From a virus, in IMG/VR virus record IMGVR_UViG_3300025450_000039, positions 1 through 52,671 of that record: a DNA stretch of 52,671 bases; one strand, given 5' to 3'. Of this stretch, positions 1,173-8,198 are shown one piece after another; the first letter of the stretch is position 1, and the number at the start of each line of letters is the position of its first letter. The position numbers were made by a program, and so were the translations under genes. The notes beneath the pieces were generated by a model. It did no database searches. It was given only the letters and a program-made list of their open reading frames with translations, and was not told the DNA's origin.

Positions 1173-1427
1173 ATGAGTAGAGCATATGGCGCCGAAGAAA
1201 AGGCAAAACTTGAAAGACTTATCAATGAAGGTTCAACTGTTTTAAGAGAAATTGAAGATCTCAACGAAGGTCTCAAGGACACAGTCAAGGCAGTAGCAGA
1301 GGAACTAAATATCAAGCCGAGTGTTATCAACAAGGCTATCAAAATTGCACATAAGGGCAATTGGCAAGATCATAATTCCGATTGGGAAGAGATCGAAGCA
1401 ATTCTAGACGTCACAAAGCGCATCTAA
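1173..1427 (+). CDS. dsbA: DsbA-like double-stranded DNA-binding protein (late transcription)
   Basis: The 84-residue protein has the size (T4 DsbA 89 aa) and layout of T4 DsbA: a charged helical N-terminal half, a central segment (KAVAEELNIKPSVINKAIKI) aligning with the T4 segment that contains DELGVDGKMFNRLLAL, and an acidic C-terminal helix ending in a DV-T motif. In T4 this protein binds duplex DNA and assists late promoters. It has a good ribosome-binding site (GGGAGA, 1160-1165) and its own candidate promoter. It lies just upstream of DNA polymerase; in T4 dsbA is near rnh and 33, so the neighbourhood differs. Assignment is from alignment by eye. Codons favour AAG and CTC more than in many neighbours, which may reflect high expression. 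Confidence 0.7.
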   Translation: MSRAYGAEEKAKLERLINEGSTVLREIEDLNEGLKDTVKAVAEELNIKPSVINKAIKIAHKGNWQDHNSDWEEIEAILDVTKRI

Positions 1428-1473
1428 TTGCAACAGGAAAGGTTCTACGAGCCATAAATCGTATTGCGGGTGA

Positions 1474-1502
1474 GTGTGAGCCGAAAATCACACAGGAGAA
1501 AA
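1474..1502 (+). promoter_or_regulatory. Hairpin next to the DNA polymerase ribosome-binding site (candidate gp43 translational operator)
   Basis: GTGTGA (1474-1479) pairs perfectly with TCACAC (1488-1493), leaving an 8-base loop GCCGAAAA. The Shine-Dalgarno AGGAG follows at once (1494-1498) and the ATG is at 1503. The T4 gene 43 operator, where polymerase represses its own translation, is also a short-stem, 8-nt-loop hairpin at the ribosome-binding site. The architecture is seen; autoregulation here is inferred. Confidence 0.6.
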
Positions 1503-4169
1503 ATGAGTTATGTCGATGCATATTTCGACCGTGATAATGATATCATTAAAATTGTCGAAAGAAATTCTAAAGGTGAACGGGAATTTAGAGATGTTCCTGT
1601 AAAACACACTTTCTATTATAAAGATCCAAAAGGAAAACATCAAAGTATTTACGGTGACCCAGTATCAAGGGTTGTTTGTAAAAATACTAAAGACTTCCGA
1701 AAGGAAATGGCTATTGCTAGCGGCAAGCAAATATATGAAGCAGATATTAATCCAATCTTTGTTTGTTTGTCAGAAAACTATTTAAATCAAGATGCTCCGA
1801 AACTTAATGTAGCATTTTTCGATATCGAAGTGGACTTTGATCCAGAAAGAGGCTATGCTAGTCCAGATGATGCATTTATGCCTATTACTGCAATCGCTGT
1901 CCACTTACAATGGTTAGAAACACTTGTATGTCTTGCAATTCCTCCAAAGACATTAACTATGGAGCAAGCACAAGAGCAAATCAAAGACTTTCCAAATACT
2001 ATTTTGTTTGATAATGAAGCAGAATTGTTAGATACGTTTTTAGATTTAATTCAAGAAGCAGACATTTTAAGTGGATGGAATAGCGAAGGGTTCGATATTC
2101 CGTATACAGTTAATCGTGTTATTAAGGTGTTATCGAAGGAAGACACTAGACGATTCTGTTTGTTTAATCAATTACCAAAAAAGCGTGAGTTCGAAAAGTT
2201 CGGTAGACAAGCAACTACATATGACTTTGTCGGGCGTGTACATATGGATAGTTTAGAACTATATCGTAAGTATACCTATGAAGAAAGACATAGTTACAGA
2301 CTAGACGCAATTGCCGAATACGAGTTAGGAGAACGAAAAACACAGTATGAAGGTACACTTGATCAGTTATACAACAATGATTTCAAAACATTCATTGAAT
2401 ATAACAGACAAGATACTATGCTTCTTGATCGTTTAGATAAGAAATTAAAGTTTTTAGATCTTGCTAATTCACTTGCACACGAAAATACAGTATTGCTCCA
2501 AACTACAATGGGAGCAGTAGCAGTAACAGAACAAGCAATCATTAATGAAGCACATCGTAGAGGATTTGTTGTCCCAAATCGTCCCAAATCAGATGAACGG
2601 GAAAACACCAATGCAGCCGGTGCGTATGTTGCATATCCAAAAGAAGGAATTCAAGACTGGGTAGGATCTTTAGACATCAACTCCCTATATCCTTCAGTAA
2701 TTCGTGCGTTAAATATGGGCCCGGAAACGATTATCGGGCAATTAAGAACAGTCGGAACCGATGCGTATATCGAAACTCAAATGGCAAAGGGCAAATCATT
2801 TGCATCTGCATGGGAAGGTCATTTTGGCACACTTGAATATGAGTCGGTAATGAAGCAAGAAATCGGTACTGATATCACAATCGATTGGGAAAATGGTGAT
2901 ATTGATATTGTAAGTGCAGCCGAAGTATATCGACTAATTTATGAAAGTAATCAACCTTGGATGTTAAGTGCAAACGGTACTATCTTTACGTGGGAGAAAG
3001 AAGGAGTTATTCCCGGATTGTTAAAGCGTTGGTATGCAGAACGTAAAGAAATGCAGGCTAAAGAGAAGGATGCACAAAATGCAGGTAACGAGATTGAAGA
3101 AGAATACTGGGCAAAGAGACAGTTAGTTAAAAAGATTAATCTAAATAGTCTATATGGTGCTATTCTTAATCCAGGTTGTAGATTCTTCGATAAGAGGATA
3201 GGACAATCTACTACATTAACTGGTCGTCAAATTGCAAAACATATGGCTTCCAAAGTTAACGAGGTTATTACAGGTGATTACGATCACGTAGGCAAAGCAA
3301 TTATTTACGGTGATACTGACTCCTGTTATTTTTCAGCGTATAAGATCTTAAAGAAGGACATCGATAACGGTAGTATTCCATGGTCAAAAGAAGCAGTAAC
3401 TCAACTATACGATCAAATTGGCGAAGAAGTCAATGGAACATTTGCACAATTTATGTTAGACCAGTTTCATTGCCCTAAAGTTCGCGGGGAAGTTATTAGA
3501 GCAGGACGAGAAATTGTAGGATCAAAGGCATTGTTTATTACTAAAAAGCGGTATGCAGTACTTGTATATGATAAAGAAGGTAAACGTAAGGATAAGGACG
3601 GCAAACCCGGAGAAATTAAAGCAATGGGGTTAGATCTCAAACGTTCAGATACTCCAGAATTCATTCAAGACTTTTTAAGTAAAGTACTCGAAATGGTACT
3701 TACTGGCTCTCAGGAACAAGAAGTATTAGATTACATCACTGAGTTTAGGACTGAATTTAAAATGCGACCGGGTTGGGAAAAAGGAAGCCCTAAAAGAGCT
3801 AATAATATTACCGAATACGAAGCAAAGGAAAAACGCCAAGGCAAAGCAAATCTTCCGGGACATGTTAGAGCAAGTATTAACTGGAATACATTAAGGAAAT
3901 TATATAACGACAAGTATTCTATGATTATCCTCGATGGAGCGAAGGTTATCGTATGTAAACTTCGGCCTAATCCACTAGAATTTACTAGTGTAGCATATCC
4001 AGTAGACGAACTTAGATTACCGCAATGGTTTAAAGATTTGCCATTCGATCATTCAGAAATGGAAGCAACTATTATCGATAAGAAACTAGATAACCTAATT
4101 GGAGTATTGAACTGGAATTTATCTAGTACTGAAGAGAAAAATACATTTAATAGTTTATTTGAGTTTTGA
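1503..4169 (+). CDS. 43: DNA polymerase, family B, T4 gp43 type, with 3'-5' exonuclease
   Basis: Replicative DNA polymerase of 888 residues (T4 gp43 is 898). Exonuclease motifs: ExoI FFDIEVDFD (D107, E109), ExoII SGWNSEGFDIPY, ExoIII YNRQDTMLLD. Polymerase motifs: A LDINSLYPS (Asp about residue 391), B KKINLNSLYGA, C IYGDTDSCY (about residues 602-610), then KKRYAVLVYD. The C-terminus NTFNSLFEF parallels the T4 clamp-binding tail (SLDFLFG). I chose ATG 1503 rather than an in-frame TTG at 1464 because AGGAG sits five bases upstream and homology starts there; the region 1464-1502 holds a hairpin instead. The gene is uninterrupted, with no intron or split, and is followed by the clamp gene. Confidence 0.97.
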   Translation: MSYVDAYFDRDNDIIKIVERNSKGEREFRDVPVKHTFYYKDPKGKHQSIYGDPVSRVVCKNTKDFRKEMAIASGKQIYEADINPIFVCLSENYLNQDAPKLNVAFFDIEVDFDPERGYASPDDAFMPITAIAVHLQWLETLVCLAIPPKTLTMEQAQEQIKDFPNTILFDNEAELLDTFLDLIQEADILSGWNSEGFDIPYTVNRVIKVLSKEDTRRFCLFNQLPKKREFEKFGRQATTYDFVGRVHMDSLELYRKYTYEERHSYRLDAIAEYELGERKTQYEGTLDQLYNNDFKTFIEYNRQDTMLLDRLDKKLKFLDLANSLAHENTVLLQTTMGAVAVTEQAIINEAHRRGFVVPNRPKSDERENTNAAGAYVAYPKEGIQDWVGSLDINSLYPSVIRALNMGPETIIGQLRTVGTDAYIETQMAKGKSFASAWEGHFGTLEYESVMKQEIGTDITIDWENGDIDIVSAAEVYRLIYESNQPWMLSANGTIFTWEKEGVIPGLLKRWYAERKEMQAKEKDAQNAGNEIEEEYWAKRQLVKKINLNSLYGAILNPGCRFFDKRIGQSTTLTGRQIAKHMASKVNEVITGDYDHVGKAIIYGDTDSCYFSAYKILKKDIDNGSIPWSKEAVTQLYDQIGEEVNGTFAQFMLDQFHCPKVRGEVIRAGREIVGSKALFITKKRYAVLVYDKEGKRKDKDGKPGEIKAMGLDLKRSDTPEFIQDFLSKVLEMVLTGSQEQEVLDYITEFRTEFKMRPGWEKGSPKRANNITEYEAKEKRQGKANLPGHVRASINWNTLRKLYNDKYSMIILDGAKVIVCKLRPNPLEFTSVAYPVDELRLPQWFKDLPFDHSEMEATIIDKKLDNLIGVLNWNLSSTEEKNTFNSLFEF

Positions 4170-4170
4170 T

Positions 4171-4210
4171 AAGAATAATTCTTGACTACAGACAATAACC
4201 TAAATATAAT
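4171..4210 (+). promoter_or_regulatory. sigma70-like promoter with adjoining inverted repeat, for the sliding clamp gene
   Basis: TTGACT at 4182-4187, 17 bases, TATAAT at 4205-4210: a near-consensus promoter. A palindrome, AAGAAT-A-ATTCTT (4171-4183), touches the -35 element and could be an operator. The transcript would begin near 4217. GGAG at 4221 serves the ATG at 4235. Confidence 0.65.
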
Positions 4211-4234
4211 AACATAATACGGAGAATAATAATA

Positions 4235-4975
4235 ATGAAAGATATTTTACAGGATTTAATTGCACATACTCACGCACTAGGATTTATTCCATTAGTTAAG
4301 GTTTCGTCTATTAATAGCGAAACTGTTATCGAAGCACGAGCTGATGATCTTTCAGTAAATGTGTTTGGCAAGACTAATAATCCAATTGAAGGATTCGACG
4401 GGGTATTCGGCATGCCTAATCTAAATAAACTCGACATTCATTTAAAATGTCCTGAGTATAAAGAAAACGCACAAATTACAATAGAGACAGAAGACCGAGA
4501 TGGGGTAGAGGAACCTGCTGGATTACACTTTGTTAATGAAACTGGCGATTTTAGGAATTATTACCGATTCATGAGCAGTATTGTTGTTAACAGCAAATTA
4601 AAATCAGTGAAATTTAAAGACAATGGTCCAACGTGGGTTATCGAATTTAACCCGTCGCAGAATAGCATCCAACGACTTAAATTCCAGCAATCTGCACATT
4701 CAGAAGAAACAGTTGTTAAAGTCAAATCAGATAACGGTAATCTTGTTTTTAGTTTCGGTGATGCAAACACTCATGCTGGCTCATTTGTTTTTGAATCAGG
4801 TATTTCAGGATCATTAAAGCAACCGATGTCATGGCCTATTTCACAATTAATTAGCATTTTGTCTTTGCCTGGCGATATGAGCATTAAAATTGCAGAAAAT
4901 CCAGGTGCGATGATGATCACTGTTAATAGTGGATTAGCAGAATACAATTACGTATTACCTGCTCATACGAAATAA
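4235..4975 (+). CDS. 45: Sliding clamp, DNA polymerase processivity factor (gp45-like)
   Basis: The 246-residue protein matches the size class of T4 gp45 (228 aa) and its all-beta, two-domain pattern with few strong motifs. Features consistent with a clamp are the repeated strand-rich segments, a segment ending in MSWPISQLISIL (clamps use this zone for ring packing), and a C-terminal strand NYVLPAHTK resembling the gp45 ending NYVVALEADS. It follows the polymerase gene and has its own near-consensus promoter and a GGAG site. The ring tethers polymerase to DNA and in T4 also activates late transcription. The assignment rests on position, length and the C-terminal pattern. No clamp-loader genes (44/62) are in the window. 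Confidence 0.75.
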   Translation: MKDILQDLIAHTHALGFIPLVKVSSINSETVIEARADDLSVNVFGKTNNPIEGFDGVFGMPNLNKLDIHLKCPEYKENAQITIETEDRDGVEEPAGLHFVNETGDFRNYYRFMSSIVVNSKLKSVKFKDNGPTWVIEFNPSQNSIQRLKFQQSAHSEETVVKVKSDNGNLVFSFGDANTHAGSFVFESGISGSLKQPMSWPISQLISILSLPGDMSIKIAENPGAMMITVNSGLAEYNYVLPAHTK

Positions 4976-4976
4976 G

Positions 4977-5177
4977 ATGGAAACACATAAAAGAACTATT
5001 GTTCGAATGATTACTTATAGAATATCTGCATGGTTATTCACGATTCTATGGACATACATGTTCACTAACGATATCGGAAAAAGTACAGGATTTGCAACAA
5101 TATTACATATTCTTTTAAGTATCGATTACTATATTCACGAACGAATATGGTTAAAAATTAAATGGGGCAAAATATGA
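4977..5177 (+). CDS. Small membrane protein, DUF2061-like
   Basis: The 66-residue protein has the look of the DUF2061 family of small membrane proteins: a charged start (KRTIVRMITYRISAW), a first hydrophobic segment around residues 16-30, a short polar turn, a second hydrophobic segment around residues 35-50, and a basic end (HERIWLKIKWGKI). It would sit in the inner membrane with two passes. The family has no established biochemical role that I know of. It starts one base after the clamp stop and overlaps the next gene by ATGA, so it is probably co-translated with it. Confidence 0.6.
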   Translation: METHKRTIVRMITYRISAWLFTILWTYMFTNDIGKSTGFATILHILLSIDYYIHERIWLKIKWGKI

Positions 5178-5578
5178 ACGAAGATTTTGATTTAGAAAAA
5201 TTTGTAGAATTATTTGATATAGCAATGACATCAGATAATCCTACTGTAAGAAAAGCATTTAAAAATTTAATGATCGTTGCGGCATTAGTAGATTCGGAAA
5301 ATACCAGTAAATCACTCGGACCATTAAAAGAGATTCTTACTGAATTTAGAAAGCTGTCTAATCGGGTGAACACATTAGAGGTATCTAGGTATACATCAAC
5401 GCCTTATACTAACGGAAATGTTACAATTAATACTAATACTCCGTACTATGGAATAGCACCTACATATACTTCTACTACTAGCGTATCGACTGCAAATATG
5501 GGGTATACTATTACTAATGATCAACTCGATAAGTACTCTCACATTTATACTACTTTAAGCAAACCTACCGATGAATAA
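5174..5578 (+). CDS. Hypothetical protein with Thr/Tyr-rich tail
   Basis: Not recognised. The protein has 134 residues. The first ~75 are predicted helical with many acidic residues (MNEDFDLEKFVELF), including a conserved-looking segment NPTVRKAFKNLM. The rest is low-complexity, rich in Thr, Tyr, Asn and Pro. I prefer ATG 5174 over an in-frame ATG at 5162: it overlaps the upstream stop as ATGA and has GGGG seven bases upstream. It overlaps the dpdA-like gene by eight bases, so it belongs to the same transcript. Confidence 0.6.
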   Translation: MNEDFDLEKFVELFDIAMTSDNPTVRKAFKNLMIVAALVDSENTSKSLGPLKEILTEFRKLSNRVNTLEVSRYTSTPYTNGNVTINTNTPYYGIAPTYTSTTSVSTANMGYTITNDQLDKYSHIYTTLSKPTDE

Positions 5579-7232
5579 AGATTTAACAGCAACACAGAAC
5601 GATTATGCAGTATTCTTACCTGCAACATCTGGATTCTATGCTACCTTTATCGGAAAACAACGGTATAGCAATTATGTCGACCCTGCAAGACTTCCCACAT
5701 CATTCACTAATGGTGTAGAAAGTCTCAACTACCTAGAGCCAGAAAAGGGATTATTTTACTATAACTGGTGCTTATATTCTGCAGGCCATGCTAACTTAGA
5801 TATTAGTAAGCAAGACGAAGCAGAAGATATGTTTCGAAATAGAGATAGAACTACTAGTTGGGTTCTCGGTGATTCGGGCGGATTTCAGATCGGCAAAGGC
5901 GTATGGGAAGGAGATTGGAAAAATCCTAATTGTCCAAAAGCACAAAAGAAGAGAGAACAGGTTCTAGCATGGATGGACGCATACATGGATTATGGTATGT
6001 GTTTAGATATTCCGGCATGGGTATGTCGTAGTCCCGAAGGGCAAAAAGCAACTGGTATCCGAACATATGAAGAAGCAGTAGATGCAACGTACATTAACAA
6101 TGAATACTTCGTTAATAATCGAAACGGTAATTGTAAGTTTCTAAATGTTCTTCAGGGAGAAAATCACGCGCAAGCTGATGATTGGTATAATCGAATGAAG
6201 AAGTATTGCGATCCAAATATCTACGGTGATAAGGCATTTAACGGGTGGGCGATGGGCGGACAAAACATGTGCGATGTTCACTTAATTCTAAAAAGATTAG
6301 TCACACTACGATTCGACGGATTATTAGAACAAGGTAAACAAGATTGGATGCACTTCTTAGGAACTAGCAAATTAGAATGGGCAGTATTATTAACTGATAT
6401 TCAACGTGCTGTTCGTAAATATCACAATCCTAACTTTACTATTAGTTTTGACTGTGCAAGCCCATTCCTAGCAACTGCAAATGGACAGATTTATATTCAA
6501 ACTGAAACTAAAGATAGAGAAAAGTGGGTTTATAGAATGGTTCCAAGTGCAGATAATAAAAAGTATTCATCCGACACACGATTGTTTAAAGATGCTGTTG
6601 TACAAGATAAACTTTTTAAAAAGAAATCAAATAGCAATGAATTCTATGGGTTTGAATCTAGTCCTCTAATTGACCAGGTCGAAATGAAGGACGTCTGTAT
6701 TTACAGTGCAGGAGTTCCTAATCCTACCTTACCAAAAAATGTAACACCGGATCCATACAATCCCGATCATTGGGAAGTATTACCTAGTTACAATAAATTA
6801 GGAAAAGTAAGCGAACGGACAAGTTGGGATAGTTTCAGTTATGCTATTCAAATGGGTCATAACGTGTGGCATCATATCAATGCTGTGCAAGAAGCAAATC
6901 GTCAATATGACATCGATGTTAGACCATCAATGCTTATTCGAGACGGTCTTGTAAAAACAGAATACTTTAGAAATCTAGTCGACGAAATTTTTCAAATAGA
7001 CGATTTCGATAAAGCAATGGCACTTGTTGAAGAAAATGAAAAGTATTGGGATACTATTATCGGAACTAGAGGTAACACTGGAAAACGTCTTATGAATTCT
7101 TCAACGAATTTTCATAATTTGTTTGAAGAAGTTCCGCAAGAAGAATCCGACGATGACTTTGAAACAGATCCTGATAACTTTTCAGAAGAGAAACTTGATA
7201 AATTAGAAGAAGAACTTAGAAATGAAACGTAA
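5571..7232 (+). CDS. dpdA: DpdA-like guanine transglycosylase (7-deazaguanine insertion into DNA)
   Basis: The 553-residue protein carries the signatures of the tRNA-guanine transglycosylase (TGT) fold: DSGGFQ at 101-106 (base-binding Asp), LNVLQGE near 191-197, GWAMGG at 225-230 (like GGLAVG), HFLGTSKLEWAV near 261-272, and SFDCASP at 292-298, where D294 aligns with the TGT nucleophile in FDCVLPTR. The zinc cluster of tRNA enzymes (CxCxxC...H) is absent. The C-terminus is strongly acidic. Phage relatives of TGT called DpdA exchange guanine in DNA for 7-deazaguanine derivatives. The role is supported here by folE and queE downstream. It overlaps the next gene by 11 bases. A tRNA substrate is the main alternative, but the missing zinc site and phage context speak against it. 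Confidence 0.82.
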   Translation: MNKDLTATQNDYAVFLPATSGFYATFIGKQRYSNYVDPARLPTSFTNGVESLNYLEPEKGLFYYNWCLYSAGHANLDISKQDEAEDMFRNRDRTTSWVLGDSGGFQIGKGVWEGDWKNPNCPKAQKKREQVLAWMDAYMDYGMCLDIPAWVCRSPEGQKATGIRTYEEAVDATYINNEYFVNNRNGNCKFLNVLQGENHAQADDWYNRMKKYCDPNIYGDKAFNGWAMGGQNMCDVHLILKRLVTLRFDGLLEQGKQDWMHFLGTSKLEWAVLLTDIQRAVRKYHNPNFTISFDCASPFLATANGQIYIQTETKDREKWVYRMVPSADNKKYSSDTRLFKDAVVQDKLFKKKSNSNEFYGFESSPLIDQVEMKDVCIYSAGVPNPTLPKNVTPDPYNPDHWEVLPSYNKLGKVSERTSWDSFSYAIQMGHNVWHHINAVQEANRQYDIDVRPSMLIRDGLVKTEYFRNLVDEIFQIDDFDKAMALVEENEKYWDTIIGTRGNTGKRLMNSSTNFHNLFEEVPQEESDDDFETDPDNFSEEKLDKLEEELRNET

Positions 7233-7746
7233 TTATTCAACCGGAACTACAGATAATGTTACATTTTTTACCGGAGTTGAAATTGAAAAGACTCCTGCTT
7301 ACGGAAAGCAAACGCTTTTCGTAGTGGGACTACATCCGGTAAACACAATTGAAGAAGTATTAGCCGAAACTACATATGATACAAGGCATATCTTTTTTGG
7401 CGCTAATCATAGTTTTAATCCGCGAATTTCCGAAGATTGGGATCAATGGGAAAAAATGATAACTCACTTTTTAGAGAAAGGTTACTTGTGTTCATTAGAC
7501 ATCCCGTTATCACATGCTGAAGAGTTTAATGAAGGGGGATTGTGCAGTTACGGCACTTTTATTCCGCAAATTAGAATACCATTGCCTTACATGCAACTTT
7601 GGAATTATAATACTATGATCAAACTCGATGATAAAGGATTTAATGCAACTAATCCTGGTGTTTGGAGTCATAGTTTACATGAGCTGAAGGATCGTGAGAA
7701 TTTTACTTCATGGTATGATTATAAAAATGACAGAATTATTAAATAA
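7222..7746 (+). CDS. Conserved phage protein of unknown function, translationally coupled to dpdA
   Basis: I know of no assigned function. The 174-residue protein alternates short hydrophobic strands (TLFVVGLHP, HIFFGANHSF, LCSLDIPL, IRIPLPYMQ) with helices, which suggests an alpha/beta fold, perhaps a fragment of a (beta-alpha) barrel. Notable residues are NHSFNP, W72 and W76 in the segment after it, and NPGVWSHSLHEL near the C-terminus. There is no Cx3Cx2C, no P-loop and no SAM motif. Its start lies 11 bases inside the dpdA end with AGAAG upstream, so it is probably made in step with DpdA and acts in the same process, for example as a partner subunit or a tailoring enzyme. That role is inference from position. 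Confidence 0.7.
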   Translation: MKRNYSTGTTDNVTFFTGVEIEKTPAYGKQTLFVVGLHPVNTIEEVLAETTYDTRHIFFGANHSFNPRISEDWDQWEKMITHFLEKGYLCSLDIPLSHAEEFNEGGLCSYGTFIPQIRIPLPYMQLWNYNTMIKLDDKGFNATNPGVWSHSLHELKDRENFTSWYDYKNDRIIK

Positions 7747-7759
7747 GATTCGTTCTTAT
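7743..7759 (+). other. Hairpin overlapping a stop codon
   Basis: ATAAGA (7743-7748) pairs with TCTTAT (7754-7759), loop TTCGT. It overlaps the stop codon of the upstream gene and ends four bases before a -35 box. There is no T-tract, so it is not a clear terminator. It may be a transcript-end structure or part of an operator. Confidence 0.35.
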
Positions 7760-7762
7760 CTA

Positions 7763-7791
7763 TTGACATATTATAATGTATTTGTTACAAT
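7763..7791 (+). promoter_or_regulatory. sigma70-like promoter for the QueD-like gene
   Basis: TTGACA at 7763-7768, 17 bases, TACAAT at 7786-7791. The same two hexamers with the same spacing occur again at 16818-16846. The predicted start is near 7798, upstream of the ATG at 7821. Confidence 0.65.
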
Positions 7792-7820
7792 AAACTATAA
7801 ATTAACAATAAAGAACAAAA

Positions 7821-8198
7821 ATGAGTCAACAAGAAACTAATATGATTTGGGTAACGTTTAGAAAGGAGGGCATCCATGCATACCCTGCTGCACTAACCGA
7901 ACCTGCACTCGAGGATGTTAAATTTTTAGGACATCCTCATAGACATATGTTTCATTTTAAAGTTTGGATTCAAGTATATCACGATGACAGAGATATCGAA
8001 TTCATTCTATTTAAACGCGAGCTCGAAGGGTTATATAACAACTCTGTACTTGAGCTTAACAACAAATCTTGCGAAATGATTGCTCGTGATTTATACGAAG
8101 AAATCCATCGCAGATATCCAGGCCGCGAGGTTTGTATCGATGTAAGTGAAGATGGCGAAAACGGCTGCTTCATTAAATTTCCTTTCACTATATTTTAA
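7821..8198 (+). CDS. QueD/PTPS-fold (T-fold) protein lacking the catalytic cysteine
   Basis: The 125-residue protein aligns by eye with QueD (6-carboxytetrahydropterin synthase): HRHMFHFKVWI (40-50) lies where QueD has the zinc motif HGHSFxV; DRDIEFILFKRELE matches the WIIDFAELK strand and helix; SCEMIARDLYEEI (83-95) matches TSEVLAKWIWDQV; VSEDGENGC (108-116) matches VKETCTAGC, keeping the Glu (E110). The third zinc His may be H19. The QueD catalytic Cys, four residues before HxH, is Leu here (L36), and the LDHxxLN motif is not visible. It may therefore do different chemistry on a 7-deazaguanine precursor. A decarboxylase of the DpdL type is one idea, but I cannot confirm that family match. 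It has its own promoter. Confidence 0.65.
   Translation: MSQQETNMIWVTFRKEGIHAYPAALTEPALEDVKFLGHPHRHMFHFKVWIQVYHDDRDIEFILFKRELEGLYNNSVLELNNKSCEMIARDLYEEIHRRYPGREVCIDVSEDGENGCFIKFPFTIF

Follow-up and report, generated by a model that had tools for sequence, protein, structure and literature searches.

The 52,671 nucleotide (nt) viral sequence analysed here, IMG/VR record IMGVR_UViG_3300025450_000039 at its full length (the window), carries on its plus strand a gene for a T4 gp43-like family B DNA polymerase of 888 amino acids (aa) at 1503..4169 (phrog_262 E 7e-203; PF00136 and PF03104). The gene is preceded on the same strand by dsbA (1173..1427), encoding an 84 aa DsbA-like transcription regulator (PF11126 Phage_DsbA, E 3e-8). 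The 75 nt between the dsbA stop codon (1427) and the polymerase ATG (1503) contain an RNA element that, from comparison with related phage sequences, is well supported as a cis-acting translational operator of the polymerase gene. The polymerase would be both the regulated product and, putatively, the repressor.

The original prediction had placed an autogenous operator of the polymerase in a single hairpin at the ribosome binding site. The hairpin was found as claimed, with stem strands GTGTGA (1474-1479) and TCACAC (1488-1493) enclosing the loop GCCGAAAA (1480-1487), followed by AGGAG (1494-1498), AAAA and the ATG at 1503. It is only one half of a larger element, an earlier unit at 1441-1463 and the GGU able to pair with the loop having been overlooked. 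A scan of the window for stems of at least 4 base pairs (bp) with a loop starting GCCNNAA yielded copies with an 8 nt loop only at this hairpin and at 1446-1463, 28 nt upstream, where the sequence reads UACGA GCCAUAAA UCGUA. The gap between the two genes therefore consists wholly of two unit copies and the Shine-Dalgarno (SD) sequence.

The repeated unit comprises GG(U/C), a short linker, a stem of 3-7 bp, the loop GCCNNAAA and the closing stem strand, and is present as two tandem copies. Unit 1 (1441..1463, plus strand) begins 13 nt after the end of dsbA and is formed by GGU at 1441-1443, the linker UC at 1444-1445, the stem UACGA/UCGUA (1446-1450 with 1459-1463) and the loop GCC AUAAA at 1451-1458. 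It was matched by a covariance model of the unit at E 6e-5 and is kept in relatives; its loop, GCCATAAA, shares the consensus of the unit 2 loop. Unit 2 (1469..1493, plus strand), whose stem-loop is the predicted hairpin, has GGU at 1469-1471, the linker GA at 1472-1473, the stem GUGUGA/UCACAC (1474-1479 with 1488-1493) and the loop GCC GAAAA at 1480-1487; the model match was E 7.5e-6 and the stem covaries. The SD sequence AGGAG (1494..1498, plus strand), assigned from the sequence, adjoins the unit 2 stem directly.

The window alone would not have identified the element. The single-sequence fold of 91 nt in the region (-19.6 kcal/mol, z = -0.60) was no better than those of shuffled sequences, and the plus strand of the window contains 32 six-bp stems with 8 nt loops against 23 in shuffles, so that the hairpin by itself is not beyond chance. 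Its significance comes from the relatives, since these single-sequence tests fall within chance while the stem retains two-sided changes. No intrinsic terminator, that is, a G+C-rich hairpin followed by a U run, was found at the site in the window. The covariance models of Rfam 15 gave no match at the element; in the rest of the window they produced just two, both below threshold (E 4.2 and 4.6).

Covariation of the two helices

Relatives were collected by scanning IMG/VR with the polymerase and three other queries, to which pattern loci among the matches listed were added, yielding 438 polymerase-bearing loci with 293 distinct leaders. The sequence collections are redundant and trees were built by FastTree only. 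A unit was accepted with at most one mismatch in GCC and only if loop positions 6-7 were AA. At least one unit was detected in 268 of the 293 distinct polymerase leaders examined, in the form GG(U/C), short linker, stem, GCCNNAAN, stem. The stem is mostly of 4-7 bp and the loop usually of 8 nt, its first three bases pairing upstream.

The prediction was to be abandoned if close relatives did not conserve the stem. Across hundreds of leaders the stem was both kept and covarying. In an alignment of 45 representative units, 94.7% of stem cells pair and every stem pair has changed on both sides. Two-sided changes numbered 60 cells, a value reached in 0 of 500 shuffles, and slid controls gave 2-9 cells. 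The complete sets of each kind (unit 1, unit 2, single units) are in accord with this result.

The first three bases of the loop, GCC, are complementary to GG(U/C) a few nt before the stem, and the resulting order of strands, a-b-a'-b', is that of an H-type pseudoknot. Across 439 units the triplets occurred as GGU/GCC (337), GGC/GCC (90), AGU/GCU (6), GGU/ACC (5) and GGU/UCC (1). Single mutants of the first pair (pair 1), either AGU with GCC or GGU with GCU, were absent from all 439. Pair 1 was also tested directly by scanning all of IMG/VR for the fixed unit 1 sequences RGTNNNATCAGCTAYAARTGAT and AGTNNNATCAGCCAYAARTGAT, both scans being run to completion. Polymerase leaders among the matches comprised 43 with AGU/GCU, 0 with GGU/GCU and 0 with AGU/GCC, and GGU/GCC with the matching stem type was present in 29 distinct leaders. 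In the window the corresponding strands are GGU at 1441..1443 and GCC at 1451..1453, both on the plus strand, which in these relatives have undergone the double change to AGU/GCU. Fitch parsimony on a polymerase tree of 310 leaves placed the AGU/GCU state in 13 separate groups with 11 changes. Recombination of leaders could inflate this count of origins but cannot explain the missing single mutants. Pair 3 varies on one side, as U-G, C-G or U-A.

The leaders with AGU/GCU in unit 1 keep unit 2 and the SD sequence (GG, GCC) unchanged, and the pairing therefore lies within one unit; long-range pairing of the loop GCC with the GG of the other unit or with the SD sequence was ruled out by the same leaders. 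A few A-C cells in pair 1 of the full-set analysis arise because the upstream triplet was there taken as the purine-G-pyrimidine closest to the loop, a looser criterion that in some cases selects a triplet within the stem. The 439-unit triplet counts and the fixed-sequence scans are the cleaner tests of this helix. Linkers are short, mostly 1-3 nt, which would fit a strand crossing the deep groove of a 5-6 bp stem. With two helices in the order a-b-a'-b', each supported by covariation, each unit appears best explained as a pseudoknot and not as a plain hairpin loop.

Gene specificity, position and distribution

When the covariance model of the unit was run against 15 phage records of 52-372 kb, strong matches occurred only at the polymerase leader. 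Three extra matches were at chance level (E 0.1-0.5) and a general regulon element was rejected. The long unit served as the basis of the model, which performs poorly on the short one, missing the leader of record G003 and finding one unit only in G007. It gave no matches in PA5oct, 121Q, RaK2, Phosso or Atu_ph07. With a degenerate pattern in IMG/VR, the unit was, among the matches listed, seen only before the polymerase; L353 and L365 are polymerase leaders as well, their loci ending just behind the start. The remaining matches of the pattern scans were unrelated, being mostly coding sequence without unit context.

The position of the element is tied to the ribosome binding site. Of 247 leaders, 240 have the start of their first SD-like tetramer within an interval running from 4 nt inside the last stem to 3 nt past it, and in 98 of the 247 the tetramer begins inside the stem. 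Another open reading frame (ORF) intervenes between element and polymerase in 13 leaders, and in these the element keeps its 5' position. The intruding ORFs are most often small and cysteine-rich, of about 55-60 aa, with a stop codon overlapping the polymerase start as ATGA; a 204 aa ORF (L158) and an HNH_3 endonuclease (L280) were each found once. The predominance of this stop-start overlap points to translational control, and such overlap would extend the control of the first cistron to the polymerase.

Small cysteine-rich ORFs (about 46-63 aa) were noted just before the polymerase in L009, L012, L019, L023, L024, L035, L039, L055, L068, L108 and L118, the 46 aa ORF of L118 being of the same kind as the others; a Pfam search with one such ORF found no match. 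The HNH_3 ORF of L280 lies directly behind the element, about 630 nt before the polymerase, and opens with the polymerase start codons (TTG AGT TAT), as though the start codon were its insertion site. A TAARTA motif resembling the core of the T4 late promoter TATAAATA occurs in 201 of 247 leaders, against 34 expected from shuffling, at a distance of up to 70 nt before the first unit. It peaks 20-25 nt before the stem and contains the dsbA stop codon in several leaders; the window itself has no TAARTA.

Leaders of the clade to which the window belongs mostly carry two units. In a sister clade (L056 to L328) the unit is single and short and overlaps the SD sequence, as in GGC UAA CCG GCC AUAAA CGG AGAA. 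In one-unit leaders (L056-L080 and L250-L328) another conserved hairpin replaces unit 1 about 30-60 nt before the polymerase start. Its sequence is GAGTCG-CTCACGTTACGAGC-ATGAATCA and variants; the stem seems to covary, and it is not a GCCNNAAA unit. In L268 dsbA is still upstream, and the leader hairpin differs (TGTGG-TATCATAAC-CCACA), possibly representing a divergent operator.

The best PDB relatives of the polymerase (E 1e-62 to 1e-64) include 1clq and 1ig9, which are gp43-type enzymes about 900 aa long. The cultured relatives nearest to it belong to jumbo phages, namely PA5oct-like, 121Q/RaK2/GAP32-like, Atu_ph07 and Phosso, at about 42-53% identity. In a polymerase tree of 285 leaves the unit-bearing leaders fall within one group of 274 leaves and all 11 cultured phages lie outside it; none of the 11 examined carries a unit. 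Searches for relatives in bacterial and archaeal genome contigs, as a lead to the host, found none. In two loci the polymerase gene is annotated as two pieces, L164 (PA5oct, 2998-8058) and L165 (Atu_ph07, 3001-5970), and in PA5oct the two are separated by a putative Hef-like homing endonuclease. Elsewhere in the window, at 5571-7232, a 553 aa ORF contains a DSGGFQ motif that recalls tRNA-guanine transglycosylase/DpdA. It had no match in Pfam, PHROG or NCBIfam, and a 7-deazaguanine link through this ORF was dropped for want of a family match in Pfam or NCBIfam.

Translational control and its likely ligand

The gp43 proteins of T4 and RB69 each repress translation of their own mRNA, acting on an operator composed of a hairpin of 18 or 16 bases together with the ribosome binding site (PMC3014915). 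The element described here resembles that operator in preceding a family B gp43-like polymerase gene and in its location in the leader, where it extends to the ribosome binding site. Hairpins of the published lengths, 18 and 16 bases, would be consistent with an 8 nt loop on stems of 5 and 4 bp, and the loop bases UAAC of T4 and RB69 and UAAA of RB49 (PMC3014915) resemble the A-rich end of GCCNNAAA. Against the T4-type core of UAAC, CAAC or UAAA, the loop here is GCCNNAA; many unit 1 copies have AUAAA and unit 2 is varied (GAAAA, CUAAA, GCAAA). Unlike the T4 operator, the element has two tandem units, a near-invariant GCC at the start of the loop and an upstream GGY paired with it in a pseudoknot, whereas a review finds no sign of a pseudoknot in the gene 43 operator of T4 (PMC3014915). 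As no loop sequence is shared with the T4/RB69 operator, common descent is unsupported, and because RNA fold and copy number differ the element would be functionally like the T4 operator and not a proven member or homologue of it. The gene 32 pseudoknot of T4 and T2 is also H-type, in the leader of a replication gene, and serves autogenous repression (PMC3014915). By description it is set apart, in that gene and protein differ (a single-strand binding protein), and the element here has a 3 bp pseudoknot helix, no spacer between the helices and usually a second copy beside the SD sequence.

Comparison of the leaders demonstrates, at the level of sequence, both helices, the tandem repetition, the restriction to the polymerase gene and the placement on the ribosome binding site. 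A polymerase-only RNA adjoining the SD sequence of a gp43-class gene is most simply explained as in T4 and RB69, with excess polymerase blocking initiation. The element is therefore probably an autogenous translational operator of the gp43-like polymerase, made of two tandem H-type pseudoknots, with the polymerase itself as the presumed ligand. The original proposal stands as regards a conserved, covarying, polymerase-specific translational operator acting in cis on the ribosome binding site, and has to be revised in that this is not a simple T4-like hairpin with a swapped loop, the units being pseudoknots and usually in tandem. In each unit GG(U/C) would pair with the GCC of the apparent 8 nt loop and stack directly on the 3-7 bp stem, and the short helix would be spanned by the remaining A-rich strand, NNAAA. 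In the tandem form knot two would adjoin the SD sequence, and in the sister clade with a single knot the stem overlaps it. Free polymerase in excess over replication forks may then bind the knots, block ribosome loading and so repress its own translation. Two copies would permit the binding of two molecules or a more graded response.

Several observations weigh against this interpretation. The closest cultured relatives of the polymerase, at the identities given above, are without the element, and it is consequently not shared by the whole of this polymerase family. Within the unit-bearing clade, about a dozen lineages show no detected unit, so that the element must be dispensable or replaceable. 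The pseudoknot helix is just 3 bp long, and its middle pair (pair 2) never varies and is therefore uninformative. Some T4-related gp43 proteins do not autoregulate (PMC3014915).

The alternative that survives best, although unlikely, is a translational operator of the polymerase gene whose ligand is another phage or host protein, for instance a RegA-like repressor or a component of the clamp loader. Nothing in the element itself points to a particular ligand, and T4 RegA represses about 30 mRNAs (PMC3014915). A general repressor should, however, have several targets, of which the 15 phage records contain no second strong example, and RegA sites have been described as without RNA structure (PMC3014915).

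It is improbable that the knots are a structural attenuator acting without any ligand, merely lowering, delaying or temperature-tuning translation of the polymerase. Folding alone could limit initiation in the 98 leaders where the SD-like tetramer starts inside the stem, but in the remainder, the window included, the SD sequence lies outside it, and folding alone needs neither a near-invariant GCCNNAA loop nor two identical loops.

A small-molecule riboswitch, in which the tandem compact pseudoknots would regulate translation of the polymerase by sensing, for instance, a nucleotide or a modified base, is decidedly improbable. Tandem units and small A-rich H-type pseudoknots do typify known riboswitches such as preQ1-I and SAM-II. 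In guanidine-II (mini-ykkC), small hairpins that share one loop sequence stand in tandem close to the SD sequence, and preQ1-I is a compact H-type pseudoknot with an A-rich strand. The present element differs from both in having no Rfam match, another loop consensus and a single target gene, whereas metabolite riboswitches usually control several, and no genes for synthesis or transport accompany it.

An mRNA-processing or stability element, either a nuclease site or a protective 5' knot at the dsbA-polymerase junction, is very improbable, since although it would suit a position between two cistrons, where 121Q, PA5oct and GAP32 have terminator-like hairpins, the window has no such site, the position tracks the SD sequence and start codon, and the stop-start overlap of the intruding ORFs points to translation.

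The broader proposal, towards which the evidence leans slightly, is that a previously undescribed family of tandem H-type pseudoknots lets the gp43-like polymerase of a large clade of uncultured phages repress its own translation, and that this arrangement arose separately from the hairpin operator of T4. The family would add an RNA structure absent from Rfam. To our knowledge, autogenous control by a DNA polymerase is known only from T4 and some of its relatives. If the proposal is true, the pseudoknots would represent a second RNA solution to polymerase self-control, spread over hundreds of environmental phages. Natural variation is at hand in leaders that carry one unit or two, show compensatory swaps in a helix, have lost the element or contain intruding ORFs, and the questions of how a polymerase distinguishes its operator RNA from DNA, and of how such protein-RNA pairs evolve, would become directly testable.
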